From Caballeronia udeis (GTDB lineage Bacteria; Pseudomonadota; Gammaproteobacteria; Burkholderiales; Burkholderiaceae): a stretch of 64,000 bases of DNA. Positions within the stretch are counted from its first letter, which is position 1, and each line of letters starts with the position of its first letter. A model generated the notes under the pieces. That model was not told the origin of the DNA. It saw only the letters and a list, made by a program, of their open reading frames with translations, and did not search any database. The translations under genes and the position numbers were made by a program. Shown piece by piece: positions 21,868-37,931 of the stretch. The stretch lies in NCBI RefSeq assembly GCF_001544555.2, contig NZ_FCOK02000013.1:1-64000 (forward strand), written 5' to 3'.

Positions 21868-21908
21868 ACTGTATCGTCCGACTGGCGCAAACCGTTGATC
21901 TGGGTCAA
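21868..21908 (-). promoter_or_regulatory. Fnr-type promoter of the N-ATPase operon
   Basis: TTGATCTGGGTCAA at 21895-21908 fits TTGAY-N4-RTCAA. Reading toward atpD, 21 nt separate the box from TACAGT (21868-21873), a 4/6 match to a -10 hexamer. Class II geometry puts the transcription start near 21860, about 100 nt before the atpD start. Confidence 0.72.
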
Positions 21909-21977
21909 CCGCCCATGAGTCGCATTTGCGGCAGTTTCGATGCCGCAAAAGGCCGCGGCGCGCCCATCAACTGTCGA

Positions 21978-22589
21978 TCAGCTTCGTTGCAGGTTGTGGG
22001 TTGAATCAACCGGCACCGACACGACAATCGCCGTCGCGCCTGTCCCCACAGGCAGAATGTTGCGCCCATGCATCTCGTTGATGATTTCCGCAGCCGACAG
22101 ATAGAACGCAAGCACCGCTGTAACAAGACCGCAATAGCCGCCTGCGTGATGCAGCCACACGAGGCCGGTCCATTCGCTTGCAGCCAGCACGAAGAAAGTG
22201 ATCCACAGCACGAAGAACACCAGTTGCAGCGCGCGCGCCGAGCGCCATGTCGCGACCCACATATACAGTGTGAACACGCCCCACAAGAACAAGTACCAGC
22301 CGACGAAGGCGGCCGGCACTTTGTCATGGAGGAACACCACGAAAAGCGCGAGCGACCACCAGAACGCCCCATAGCTAAGAAAAGCGGTGGCGCCGAACGT
22401 GTTGCCGCGCGGAATCTCCATCAGTCCAGCCAATGCTTGTGCGGTACCGCCGTAAGCGAAGGCGACGGCGAGCACCATGCCCATGGCATCGCCTGTGAAC
22501 CATCCAGCGTTGATCATGCTGAGCAGCCAGGTTGTCAAAGCGAATCCGGCAAGCCCGAGCGATGCGGGGTTAGGTGTCTTGAAGTTCAT
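21978..22589 (-). CDS. satP: Acetate/succinate permease (SatP/GPR1-FUN34-YaaH)
   Basis: A 203-residue protein with six membrane helices and the family signature NPASLGLAGFALTT near the N-terminus (usually NPAPLGL). It imports acetate with protons. The start is the ATG at 22589, preceded by AGGAG. The gene lies 104 bp after acs on the same strand, with no terminator visible between them, so uptake and activation of acetate are probably co-expressed from the Fnr-type promoter before acs. Confidence 0.9.
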   Translation of the reverse strand: MNFKTPNPASLGLAGFALTTWLLSMINAGWFTGDAMGMVLAVAFAYGGTAQALAGLMEIPRGNTFGATAFLSYGAFWWSLALFVVFLHDKVPAAFVGWYLFLWGVFTLYMWVATWRSARALQLVFFVLWITFFVLAASEWTGLVWLHHAGGYCGLVTAVLAFYLSAAEIINEMHGRNILPVGTGATAIVVSVPVDSTHNLQRS

Positions 22590-22693
22590 GATGAGTGTCT
22601 CCTGAAGCAAACGGAAGCTGTCGCGCAGCAGTCACAACGAATCAATGACCGCGCGACGAACCCGCGCGGTTCAACCCTCCTGTATTTCGATCT

Positions 22694-24667
22694 TCATGTC
22701 GGGTCGGCGAACTGAGCGATCACCTGAGGATTTTCAACGGTCGACGTGTCTTGCGAGACTGCTTCGCCCTTAGCGACCGAGCGCAACAACCGGCGCACGA
22801 CTTTCCCGGAGCGCGTCTTTGGCATCGCGTCGCCGAAGCGGATCTCCTTCGGTTTAGCAATCGGACCGATCTCCTTGCCGACCCATGCACGCAACTCGTC
22901 GGCTATGCGTTTCACGTCGGCACCCGTGGGCCGCGGCCCTTTAAGCACGACGAACGCGACAATGGCTTCGCCGAAGGTTTCGTCGGGACGACCCACCACC
23001 GCTGCCTCCGCGACCAACGGACAAGCCGCCAGAGCCGACTCGATTTCCATCGTGCCCATGCGGTGACCCGATACATTCAGGACATCGTCGACACGGCCCG
23101 TGATGGTGAAATAACCCGTGTCGGGATCACGGATCGCACCATCTCCGGCGAGATACAGATTGCCGCCGAGTTCCTGCGGGTAATAACCGTTGCGAAAGCG
23201 CTCCGGGTTGCCCCATACGGTGCGGATCATCGAAGGCCACGGCTTTCTGATGACCAGCACTCCGCCTTGCCCGTTCGGGACCTCGTTGCCGGTTTCATCG
23301 ACGATCGCGGCATCTATGCCGGGCAGCGGCAGCGTGCAGGATCCGGCAACAAGCGGGGTGACACCCGGCAGCGGCGTGATCATGTGACCACCTGTCTCGG
23401 TCTGCCAGAAGGTGTCGAGTACGGGGCACCTGCCACCGCCGACTTGCTCCGCATACCACTTCCACGCACTCGGGTTGATGGGTTCGCCCACCGTACCGAG
23501 AATGCGAAGCGTGCTCAGGTCGTAGCTTGCAGGATGTACGGACCGGTCTGCGTCAGCGCTCTTGATCAGCGACCGGATGGCGGTCGGCGCGGTGTAGAAG
23601 ATCGACACCTTGTGGCGCTGGATCATGTCCCAGAAGCGGCCGGCGTTCGGGTAGGTGGGCACGCCCTCGAAAATGACCTGGGTCGCGCCGACAGCAGTCG
23701 GTCCATAGCAGATGTACGTGTGCCCTGTGATCCAGCCAATGTCGGCAGTACACCAAAATACATCGTCCGGCTTGATGTCGAAGGTCCATCGCATGGTGAC
23801 GGCCGCCCATGTCAGGTAACCCCCGGTACTATGCTGGACGCCTTTCGGCGTGCCCGTGGATCCTGACGTATACAACACGAACAGCGGATGCTCGGCGTCC
23901 ACCCATTCAGGCTCGCAGGTTTCCGGCTGGTCATTCTCAAGCTCATGCAGCCAGGCGTCACGGCCCACGATCCACGGAATCCGTCCGCCCGTGCGCCGAT
24001 AAATGACGACGGTCTTGACGGCGTCGGTGCCCCCCATTGCGAGCGCCTCGTCAACGATCGTCTTCAGGGGAAGAGTCTTGCCGGCACGTACCTGTTCATC
24101 CGCGGTAATGACTGCTACCGCGCCGACGTTCACCATCCGCTCGTGGAGCGATTTGGCGGAAAAGCCACCGAAGACAACCGAGTGCGGCGCGCCGATGCGC
24201 GCGCACGCTTGCATGGCGACGACACCTTCGACCGACATTGGCAGGTAGATGACCACGCGGTCGCCTTTCTTCACGCCCCGTGCCCGCAATGCGTTGGCGA
24301 GCCGGCATACCCTGTGGTACAGCGCCTGATACGTGACGGAAGAAACCTGGCCGTCGTCCGATTCGAAGATGATCGCGGTCTTGTCCGCGTTGCCGTTGAT
24401 GAGATTCCGGTCAAGGCAGTTATACGATGCATTGAGTTCCCCGTCCTCGAACCATCTGTAGAACGGAGCATTCTCTTCGTTAAGAATCCGCGTGAACGGG
24501 CGACGCCAGTTCAGATGCTCGCGGGCCAGACGCGCCCAGAAGGCTTCGTGATCCTGCGCGGCTTCAGCCACGAGCGCGCGGTACGCATCCATTCCGTCAA
24601 TCGCGGCATGACGTGTCAAGGGAATACCCTGCGCAGGGATGAGAGGAATCGATTCGATGGTAGACAT
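22694..24667 (-). CDS. acs: Acetyl-CoA synthetase
   Basis: A 657-residue AMP-forming enzyme that turns acetate, ATP and CoA into acetyl-CoA. It has the adenylation loop [12 protein letters not shown], the [13 protein letters not shown] segment, [10 protein letters not shown], the hinge [15 protein letters not shown] and the catalytic Lys in [11 protein letters not shown] that can be acetylated. The ATG at 24667 follows GCGAGGAG; the open frame upstream runs through the promoter. It has a Fnr-type promoter and the acetate permease downstream. Acs usually works in oxygen-respiring cells scavenging acetate, so low-oxygen control is unusual. Confidence 0.95.
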
Positions 24668-24816
24668 AGTCTCCTCGCTTGAGTCGTGAGATGGACGGGC
24701 AAACGGCAGCCGTCGCCTGGGAGCTCTTGATGGCCCGAGTGGGCTTTGCCCGTGTGAGGGGTTATGCGCCTCTCGCATGGTCGACGCTGGTCGAATCGAG
24801 GCACTGCCGCAAGTCA

Positions 24817-24857
24817 ACTATGGGATCTCCACCAGACGACCTGTTGATGCAAATCAA
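24817..24857 (-). promoter_or_regulatory. Fnr-type promoter of acs-satP
   Basis: A perfect consensus box, TTGATGCAAATCAA (24844-24857), is followed toward acs by 21 nt and CATAGT (24817-24822). The predicted transcription start is near 24810, leaving a leader of about 140 nt. Confidence 0.78.
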
Positions 24858-24936
24858 ACAGACCGGGCAGACGAATGGACAAATTCGCACAGCGAGGTTA
24901 TTCCCGCTTCGGGTTGTTTCGCCGGGAACAGGCTGG

Positions 24937-36944: not shown

Positions 36945-36954
36945 TCCTGATGTA

Positions 36955-36999
36955 GGCGAGTCCTGTCGAAGGAGATTCACCCTCCTTCGGGAACTCGCC
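36955..36999 (+). promoter_or_regulatory. Structured 5' leader of the CBS-BON mRNA
   Basis: Two nested stems: GGCGAGT (36955-36961) with ACTCGCC (36993-36999), and CGAAGGAG (36967-36974) with CTCCTTCG (36982-36989) around a 7-nt loop. The descending arm contains CCTCCTT (36981-36987), which is complementary to a Shine-Dalgarno sequence. The real ribosome site AGGAG is at 37011-37015. It could act as a 5' stabiliser or as a switch in which CCTCCTT pairs either with the decoy in the stem or with the real site. Confidence 0.5.
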
Positions 37000-37021
37000 C
37001 GATCACATTCAGGAGCGGAAG

Positions 37022-37714
37022 ATGCGAGCAGTCGATGTCATGACCCGGAAGGTCATTACCGTAGGACCCGGCACGACCGTGCGAGAAGCTGCTCGCCTGT
37101 TTGCCGACAATCACATCAGTGGTGCGCCGGTAGTGGATGACGAGGGCCGCTTGCTCGGCATGCTTACCGAAGGCGACCTGCTCCATAGAACCGAGATCGG
37201 CACGCAAGCCCGGCGACGGTCGTGGTGGCTTGAATTTTTTGCATCGACACAGAATCTTGCCGCGACGTACATCAAGGAGAACGCGCGCTTGGTGAAGGAC
37301 GTGATGACCCCCAAGGTGATTACGGTCAAGGAAACAACGCCGGTCAGGGAAATAGCCGACCTTCTGGAGCGGCATCGGATCAAGCGCGTTCCGGTGTTGT
37401 ACGACGGAGAGTTGCTGGGAATTGTCAGCCGGGCAAATCTGGTAAAAGCCCTGGCAAGCGTTCCGAAGGACGCAGGCATGAGCACGCCGAGCGCCGACCA
37501 GACGCTGCGCGACGCGGTTCTCCGGCAGCTGGAAGGTCATCGCTGGGCCGTGGCCGCCGAGAACGTCATTGTGAATGACGGCACGGTTCATCTATGGGGC
37601 GTGGTCACCTCGCTTGAGCAGGCGCGTGCCATGTGCATCGCTGTGGAAAAGGTACCGGGTGTCAAGGGTGTGGAAGACCATACCGATGCCCCAATGATGA
37701 TTCCCGCGATGTAA
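37022..37714 (+). CDS. CBS-pair and BON domain protein
   Basis: A 230-residue cytoplasmic protein. Two CBS motifs (VMTRKVITVGPGTTVREAA and VMTPKVITVKETTPVREIA) build one Bateman module for adenine nucleotides or NAD-type ligands. A linker with a Trp-rich segment (RRSWWLEFF) lies between them. Residues about 160-225 form a BON domain (LRDAVLRQLEGHRWAVAAEN, VHLWGVVTSLEQARAM). CBS-BON proteins are common in hypoxia and stress loci, but their target is unknown. It has a Fnr-type promoter and a structured leader. Confidence 0.88.
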   Translation: MRAVDVMTRKVITVGPGTTVREAARLFADNHISGAPVVDDEGRLLGMLTEGDLLHRTEIGTQARRRSWWLEFFASTQNLAATYIKENARLVKDVMTPKVITVKETTPVREIADLLERHRIKRVPVLYDGELLGIVSRANLVKALASVPKDAGMSTPSADQTLRDAVLRQLEGHRWAVAAENVIVNDGTVHLWGVVTSLEQARAMCIAVEKVPGVKGVEDHTDAPMMIPAM

Positions 37715-37733
37715 TCGTTGCGATGTAATGGTT
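37706..37733. repeat. Tandem 14-bp duplication across a stop codon
   Basis: GCGATGTAATCGTT and GCGATGTAATGGTT (one mismatch) lie head to tail. The first copy contains the TAA stop of the CBS-BON gene. Confidence 0.75.
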
Positions 37734-37890
37734 GATCAATCCGCGCATCGCGACCCGGTGCAATCAGCGCCATGGCGGATGCATTGCGGTGGGCATAAGC
37801 GTGATTGAAAGCCCCATGCAACCGCACATGACCGCACGCCATCCATAAACAAAGCCGGCTTCACGAATTGAAGACCTACCCGCCATGCGT

Positions 37891-37931
37891 GTGACACAGG
37901 TCAACGACCGTTGGAGTTTGCGGCATATAAC
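37891..37931 (+). promoter_or_regulatory. Fnr-type promoter of glutamate decarboxylase
   Basis: GTGACACAGGTCAA at 37891-37904 (one mismatch to TTGAY-N4-RTCAA), 21 nt, then TATAAC (37926-37931), the best -10 of the set (5/6). The start would be near 37938, giving a leader of about 170 nt in a 393-bp intergenic region. Confidence 0.65.

Follow-up and report, generated by a model that had tools for sequence, protein, structure and literature searches.

The locus described here can be compared with three known systems. One is the class II promoter of FNR and ANR, with the activator box centred at -41.5 and a -10 element about 21–22 nt after the box. Another is the low-oxygen-activated (lxa) locus of Burkholderia cenocepacia, whose products include universal stress proteins (USPs), BON and alpha-crystallin, and for which BCAM0049/fixK has been named as a possible regulator (PMC6127331; papers are cited by PMC number and represented by selected passages). 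The third is the N-ATPase of B. pseudomallei, an N-type operon on chromosome 2, for which acid survival in phagosomes has been proposed (PMC5376962) and a high-salt advantage assumed (PMC4154653); the cellular role of N-ATPases has been called largely unexplored (PMC5376962). In the present study, a 64,000-nucleotide stretch of the genome of the soil bacterium Caballeronia udeis (contig NZ_FCOK02000013.1, positions 1 to 64,000; the window) was analysed. It very probably carries an lxa-type island, a compact regulon for low oxygen under Fnr, and the interpretation given in the preliminary description of the window stands at the sequence level. What goes beyond the known kind of locus is the N-ATPase promoter, with its putative oxygen switch in many Burkholderiaceae.

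The pattern TTGAYN4RTCAA was used as the Fnr box and its reversed form as the control; the 10.05-Mb genome and the genus sample were searched with fixed patterns (the box, or the box with a hexamer) and not with a position matrix. The eight sites named in the preliminary description were all recovered (Table 1; boxes are called by their first nucleotide). Seven of them are exact and span 15,023 bp, in agreement with the 16 kb given earlier, and the box at 37891 has one mismatch. The earlier expectation of about 0.24 sites per 64 kb agrees with the information content of the pattern and, by coincidence, with the genome rate. Genome-wide, there are 39 exact boxes and 14 matches to the reversed pattern; seven of the 39 lie inside the 15,023 bp, where 0.058 would be expected (scan bound ~2e-9). 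With up to one mismatch, the window contains 12 matches; 100 dinucleotide shuffles had 4.55 on average and never more than 10. The statement that all sites are intergenic holds for Pfam-recognised genes and fails by a mechanical measure, the presence of an open reading frame (ORF) of at least 150 aa over the box, which applies to three of the eight window sites versus 21 of the 32 exact boxes elsewhere in the genome. The ORFs overlapping window boxes are antisense or over-extended, for example a 219-aa ORF without a Pfam match. Over 41 genomes of the genus, exact boxes number from 0 to 57 each (reversed control 2–16, one genome 47), a range which suggests that the Fnr regulon is expanded in some lineages and not in others.

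The arrangement of the promoters is that of class II. A TATAAT-like hexamer (4–5 of 6 bases) lies 21 or 22 nt gene-ward of the box at seven of the eight sites, as had been noticed from the sequence earlier, and in the opposite direction no box has a hexamer reaching 4/6. The exception is the box at 31112, where GACACT matches TATAAT at 3/6; the box at 24844 has an additional weak hexamer, CAAATT (3/6), in the reverse direction. Hexamers with at least 4/6 at either spacing have a background of 2.5% per position (whole window, coding included), against which seven of eight boxes give P ~5e-11. Judged by sequence, the window boxes and their hexamers are thus of class II (-41.5) Fnr geometry, and the predicted start sites, apart from that of atpD (Table 1), are 24809 (acs), 33184 (usp4) and 33366 (adh2). 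A stricter search of the whole genome (box, N21-22 and YANNNT) gave 10 matches, seven of them in the window locus, and two for the reversed control. The seven correspond to six sites, one being counted both ways, and the genome total is nine sites; the window stretch therefore has six of the nine exact boxes with strict class II geometry, weaker boxes elsewhere being outside this search. The window differs from other class II FNR/ANR promoters in that the targets are packed beside the regulator gene and that an N-ATPase is among them.

Table 1. Predicted Fnr boxes and associated genes of the Caballeronia udeis window (hexamer distances are from the box towards the gene)
Feature	Position	Strand	Remarks
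N-ATPase operon atpD-atpC-atpQ-atpR-atpB-atpE-atpF-atpA-atpG	14886..21758	-	atpD start codon uncertain
Fnr box, N-ATPase operon	21895..21908	-	TACAGT at 21 nt; predicted start ~21860
satP-like GPR1/FUN34/YaaH acetate transporter	21978..22610	-	PF01184, E 7e-40
acs, acetate--CoA ligase	22694..24667	-	TIGR02188 937.9 bits, above cut-off; start codon by eye
Fnr box, acs-satP	24844..24857	-	CATAGT at 21 nt
Fnr box, usp1-adh1	24937..24950	+	TAAATT at 21 nt
usp1; zinc alcohol dehydrogenase adh1	25090-25545; 25696-26724	+	PF00582, PF08240, PF00107
fnr, Crp/Fnr regulator	27616..28410	-	C-x2-C-x5-C, ETVSR recognition helix; NF008365
Receiver protein; LuxR-type response regulator; PAS histidine kinase HK1	28484-28891; 29047-29694; 29691-30986	-	upstream of fnr; Pfam
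Fnr box, usp2 (31183-31647)	31112..31125	+	weak GACACT at 22 nt
Fnr box, usp4 (32259-33098)	33219..33232	-	TAGACT at 21 nt; Usp domains
Fnr box, adh2	33318..33331	+	TAGAGT at 22 nt
adh2, zinc-dependent dehydrogenase	33414..34451	+	PF08240, PF00107
Fnr box, CBS-BON protein gene	36904..36917	+	TAGCAT at 21 nt
CBS-BON domain protein	37022..37714	+	PF00571, PF04972
One-mismatch Fnr box, gadB-gadC	37891..37904	+	TATAAC at 21 nt
gadB (glutamate decarboxylase) and gadC-like amino acid permease	38108..41023	+	TIGR01788 613.5 bits; PF13520

Conservation was followed in ten named loci with a close Fnr relative (L016–L025; nine Caballeronia and one Burkholderia sp. S171), mapped using the window proteins. 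Box and -10 are kept in relatives at seven of the eight sites, the seven comparable ones. The usp4 box with TAGACT is present in 10/10 relatives; probably, this box also serves usp3 (31710-32216), which lies behind usp4. Similarly, box and -10 are retained at adh2 in all eight relatives with this gene and at acs in all seven with acs (L016–L022); L025 has a box at the position of the acs box, and acs was not found at that place. The usp2 box is kept with GACACT in 7/8 relatives with usp2 (not L025), and the atpD box with a -10 in three of five covering relatives (L016–L018; not L021, L022). The CBS-BON box, covered by seven relatives, is exact in five, has one mismatch in one and is absent in one. 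The gad box occurs as ATGACACAGGTCAA, always with one mismatch, together with TATAAC in 4/5 relatives with gadB. The usp1-adh1 pair with the box at 24937 is absent at the corresponding place in L016–L022, hence no comparison of this box. The spacer between box and hexamer varies at most compared promoters, that of usp2 being fairly conserved. In a wider family sample (30 adh2 loci read of 39 hits, the window's included), the 400 bp before adh2 contain an exact box in 12/30 loci, and a box in 20/30 if one outer mismatch is allowed.

These data bear on the alternative that base composition or repeated motifs produced the boxes by chance. Accidental matches do occur in the genome: the reversed pattern has its 14, and most of the 32 exact boxes elsewhere look like chance, a -10 with at least 4/6 being present at six of them. 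However, the clustering, the geometry and the conservation in relatives argue against an artefact, as does the lack of any exact box in the F-type stretches described below, and the preservation of box and -10 beside a more variable spacer contradicts it. The probability of this explanation is negligible.

The presumed regulator is encoded inside the island. The fnr product has the four cluster cysteines of Fnr, C42, C45, C51 and C144 (Met at 28410 = 1), and the spacing of 93 to the fourth one equals that of E. coli FNR (29 to 122). The family score is 229.0 bits with NF008365, just above the cut-off of 228, and the recognition helix is of the E-x2-SR kind. The receiver, LuxR-type and kinase genes stay with fnr in L016–L022 and L025; only the LuxR-type regulator was seen in L023 and L024. 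The consensus sites of Fnr, nitric oxide (NO)- and FixK-type regulators overlap, and the boxes might be used by another member of the Crp/Fnr family, with the island answering NO or a two-component oxygen signal. In line with this, the same genome encodes a second Fnr-type protein with C-x2-C-x5-C (G000:C73:38939-39634; L118, L246) and two more, weaker Crp/Fnr-family matches, and the pair of LuxR regulator and PAS kinase adjoins fnr. Such an explanation seems rather doubtful, however, since both strong homologs have the Fnr cysteine pattern and the fnr gene stays with the island in relatives. Control by Fnr, as put forward in the preliminary description, is supported by the promoter geometry, the conservation, the Fnr cysteines encoded in the locus, the concentration of strict matches and the control with permuted palindromes at N-ATPase promoters given below.

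The likeness to lxa proposed earlier is supported by a sister island. The window shares with lxa several USPs and the close packing of genes that would suit life at low oxygen. Against the lxa hallmarks (six USPs, BON and alpha-crystallin), it has four usp genes and the CBS-BON protein; no HSP20 was found among the window ORFs scanned, which are a subset of all ORFs. The locus, ~15–20 kb without the N-ATPase genes, lacks some hallmarks and, unlike lxa, carries its own fnr with kinase and regulator genes, the N-ATPase, acs-satP and gadBC. The presence of N-ATPase, acs-satP and gad genes, noted in the preliminary description, was confirmed with Pfam/TIGRFAM-type models. The word Fnr was not found in the parts of the lxa literature searched by word, including PMC6127331.

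In the related genome G005 there are 23 class II matches; 17 of them are found at 12 to 97 kb of a single contig, which also carries the N-ATPase. Genome G021 has 16, ten of them within 20 kb. Many genus-mates have few class II matches; with the reversed pattern, each direction of each genome yields 0 to 2. In the ~84-kb island of G005 (contig C25), the first long ORF after each of the 17 promoters was picked by script and scanned with Pfam. The products include BON, two USPs, phosphate acetyltransferase (PTA), cytochrome c, a weak flavodoxin, lipocalin, nitroreductase, HSP20, a beta-CASP metallo-hydrolase and CBS-BON. One more ORF has a weak peptidase match; it is probably not the true gene of its promoter, and adh1 and atpD follow there. 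Five of the 17 picked ORFs have no Pfam match. More USP relatives and an fnr/luxR/kinase set are also present, and with its USPs, BON and HSP20 this island has content of the lxa type. Among the nine genomes listed with both adh2 and the N-ATPase, five, the window's included, have them at most 30 kb apart on one contig.

By its content and order, the operon downstream of the box at 21895 is an N-ATPase operon. It gave Pfam matches to ATP-synt_ab, ATP-synt_DE_N, ATPase_gene1 (PF09527), AtpR (PF12966), ATP-synt_A and ATP-synt_C; the NCBIfam models of alternate F1F0 alpha, b and gamma subunits match below their cut-offs. AtpR and AtpQ are present, the beta and epsilon genes come first and there is no separate delta gene: the sole OSCP match is weak (26.2 bits, cut-off 22.3) and falls within the C-terminal part of the b subunit. 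Content and order, AtpR included, are the same as in the N1No N-ATPase of B. pseudomallei (atpDCQRBEFAG), and in B. thailandensis the operon on chromosome 2 is also ordered atpD-atpC-...-atpG (PMC3966863). AtpR was found in 11/41 genomes of the genus, 34/299 of the family, 15/369 of the class and 20/398 of the phylum; each count includes the window genome, and some phylum and class matches are under the cut-off of the protein family.

The upstream region of atpD was compared in 74 fetched N-ATPase stretches, 64 with a usable atpD start, the window's own genome being excluded; the search covered the 400 bp that precede the first aligned codon. In Burkholderiaceae, an exact box was found in 19/39 loci and a box with up to one mismatch in 27/39, the number of exact boxes expected in the 39 windows being 0.05 at the genus mean rate and 0.12 at the highest genus rate. 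After clustering of the family upstreams by similarity, 12 of 24 clusters contain an exact box. When 60 permuted palindromes were applied, more than one locus was matched only by the Fnr pattern (19/39) and two core variants (25 and 16). Elsewhere in the 39 loci there are 20 exact boxes in 364,385 bp, ~55 per Mb with close relatives counted apart, versus 3.1 per Mb in the genus sample. The control with F-type operons of the same group of genomes (40 loci, 180,490 bp) gave 16 boxes with up to one mismatch, none of them exact, a rate corresponding to ~1.4 near-boxes in 39 windows of 400 bp. These stretches reach to 4 kb upstream of the delta gene in 40/42 genomes (the window genome included; G645 and G699 omitted for want of a complete match), and the F-type promoter should lie inside them. 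Five Caballeronia N-ATPase stretches share contigs with the named loci, so the tests of conservation and of atpD upstreams partly overlap. Among plasmids, 14 of 77 records with a similar operon were read, and an exact box precedes atpD in 3/3 from Burkholderiaceae and 2/11 others. From the family and plasmid counts, the link between atpD and the box is common in Burkholderiaceae and patchy outside. A general rule that every N-ATPase is an Fnr target was considered and rejected, an exact box being absent from 20/25 non-family loci and 9/11 non-family plasmid records. One plasmid with a box, that of Rhizobium sp. ACO-34A (L252), carries it 48 bp before the annotated atpD start of an N-ATPase operon near cydD.

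The following mechanism may be proposed. As oxygen falls, Fnr (the product of the window gene or a genomic paralog) would gain an iron-sulphur cluster and dimerise. It would then bind each box at -41.5 and recruit RNA polymerase to the -10 at 21–22 nt, in the manner of class II activation established for FNR. The targets would be the N-ATPase operon, acs-satP, usp1-adh1, usp2, usp4-usp3, adh2 and the CBS-BON gene and, more doubtfully, gadBC. We infer how far the operons extend, that Fnr binds, that transcription depends on oxygen and that the effect is activation and not repression. The N-ATPase would act as a rotary enzyme with a high H+/ATP ratio for conditions where respiration is too slow to sustain a large proton-motive force. 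If the window enzyme has the ratio of that of B. pseudomallei, published as 5.7 ions per ATP, and if the phosphorylation potential is taken to be 50 kJ/mol, our own arithmetic places the balance point at ~90 mV, versus ~155 mV for an enzyme with a ratio of 3.3. Owing to this lower balance point, the N-ATPase could make ATP at a low force or cheaply hold a small force in anoxic persistence. We lean slightly towards extending this proposal to the Burkholderiaceae as a whole: the N-ATPase would be a direct Fnr target and belong to lxa-type regulon islands, as a 'low-gear' rotary ATPase switched on without oxygen that energises the membrane or makes low-force ATP during anoxic persistence, and much of the strong Fnr regulon would be packed round a local fnr/luxR/kinase module and not scattered.

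Published proposals for the B. pseudomallei enzyme concern salt or acid, whereas the promoter in the window points to oxygen limitation. The N-ATPase might indeed serve acid or salt stress as published, with the Fnr box incidental, and nearby gadBC would suit acid. This looks unlikely in view of the recurrent box ahead of atpD across the family and the density of exact boxes elsewhere in N-ATPase loci, and stress roles and Fnr control can coexist. In the available passages, published expression results agree in part and disagree in part with the oxygen link of the N-ATPase proposed here. An ATP synthase cluster on chromosome II was induced, and that on chromosome I repressed, both in B. pseudomallei under hypoxia and in B. 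thailandensis cells that survived drug treatment (PMC4187911). The induced cluster is called F-type there; we infer that it is the N-ATPase. In B. thailandensis, the chromosome 2 operon responded to temperature along with nar, nos and USP genes (PMC3966863). In B. cenocepacia H111, Anr is needed for anoxic survival, with a potential Anr box before the cytochrome bd genes (PMC9104464), and work on B. cenocepacia and Herbaspirillum has tied USP genes and cytochrome bd to Anr or Fnr (PMC9104464, PMC5934665). A nine-gene F0F1 operon was up 126-fold beside cytochrome bd in microaerobic Burkholderia (PMC5116747); the passages are silent on which of two operons is meant, and the result was therefore not counted as support. 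A printed link between N-ATPase and Fnr was sought and not seen in titles, abstract openings and cited passages, and word searches of papers on B. pseudomallei RegAB and on Dinoroseobacter and Rhodobacter FnrL gave F-type genes or nothing relevant, and no N-ATPase.

Several observations weigh against Fnr control of the island and its N-ATPase. In stationary B. thailandensis under oxygen limitation it was the operon on chromosome 1 that was induced, and nitrate genes were not; this speaks against a simple rule, and the authors note a discrepancy with USP induction in other Burkholderia (PMC3966863). Outside Burkholderiaceae, only 5/25 loci have an exact atpD box. Within the family, 12/39 loci lack a box with up to one mismatch in the 400 bp; in some of them boxes occur at a greater distance upstream, before an acs, usp or adh gene, and L066, L067, L068 and L075 have no box or only a distant one. 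In Caballeronia L059 and L061 no box stands directly before atpD, and a boxed acs directly precedes atpD there. The fnr operon has no box plus -10 of its own.

No box was found at eight other family gadB loci with enough upstream DNA; a ninth, L177, has only 191 bp upstream, and in 7/9 gadB is only 43–45% identical and may not be orthologous. This result raises the possibility of a partial regulon, in which the boxes of usp, adh2, acs, CBS-BON and atpD work and those of gad and the lineage-specific one at 24937 are decayed or accidental; the usp1-adh1 pair at 24937 likewise has no counterpart in L016–L022. Nevertheless, ATGACACAGGTCAA is retained with TATAAC in most relatives with gadB, and the box at 24937 has a well-placed -10, so a partial regulon is to be regarded as a tentative and not very probable explanation. 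The gad box is, to judge from these comparisons, lineage-specific and the weakest of the eight.

For Fnr control of the N-ATPase, the predicted oxygen-switch box makes the role of this enzyme directly testable: its presence at atpD in several genera singles out oxygen limitation as the condition to examine, together with a regulator and predicted start sites. The lxa-type persistence loci become tied to an explicit promoter code, by which candidate members can be picked from the sequences of other genomes. The boxed operon in many related bacteria also hints at the purpose of a second, poorly understood ATP-driven pump.

Some neighbouring genes were also noted. A gene of an Nramp-family transporter (13563-14870, minus strand) starts 15 bp past atpG and may be co-transcribed with the N-ATPase genes. 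In G005, atpD is preceded by a relative of adh1 that has boxes in front of it. A second PAS histidine kinase, of the HisKA_3 type, is encoded between adh2 and the OmpW gene (34777-36147, minus strand) and is kept in relatives.

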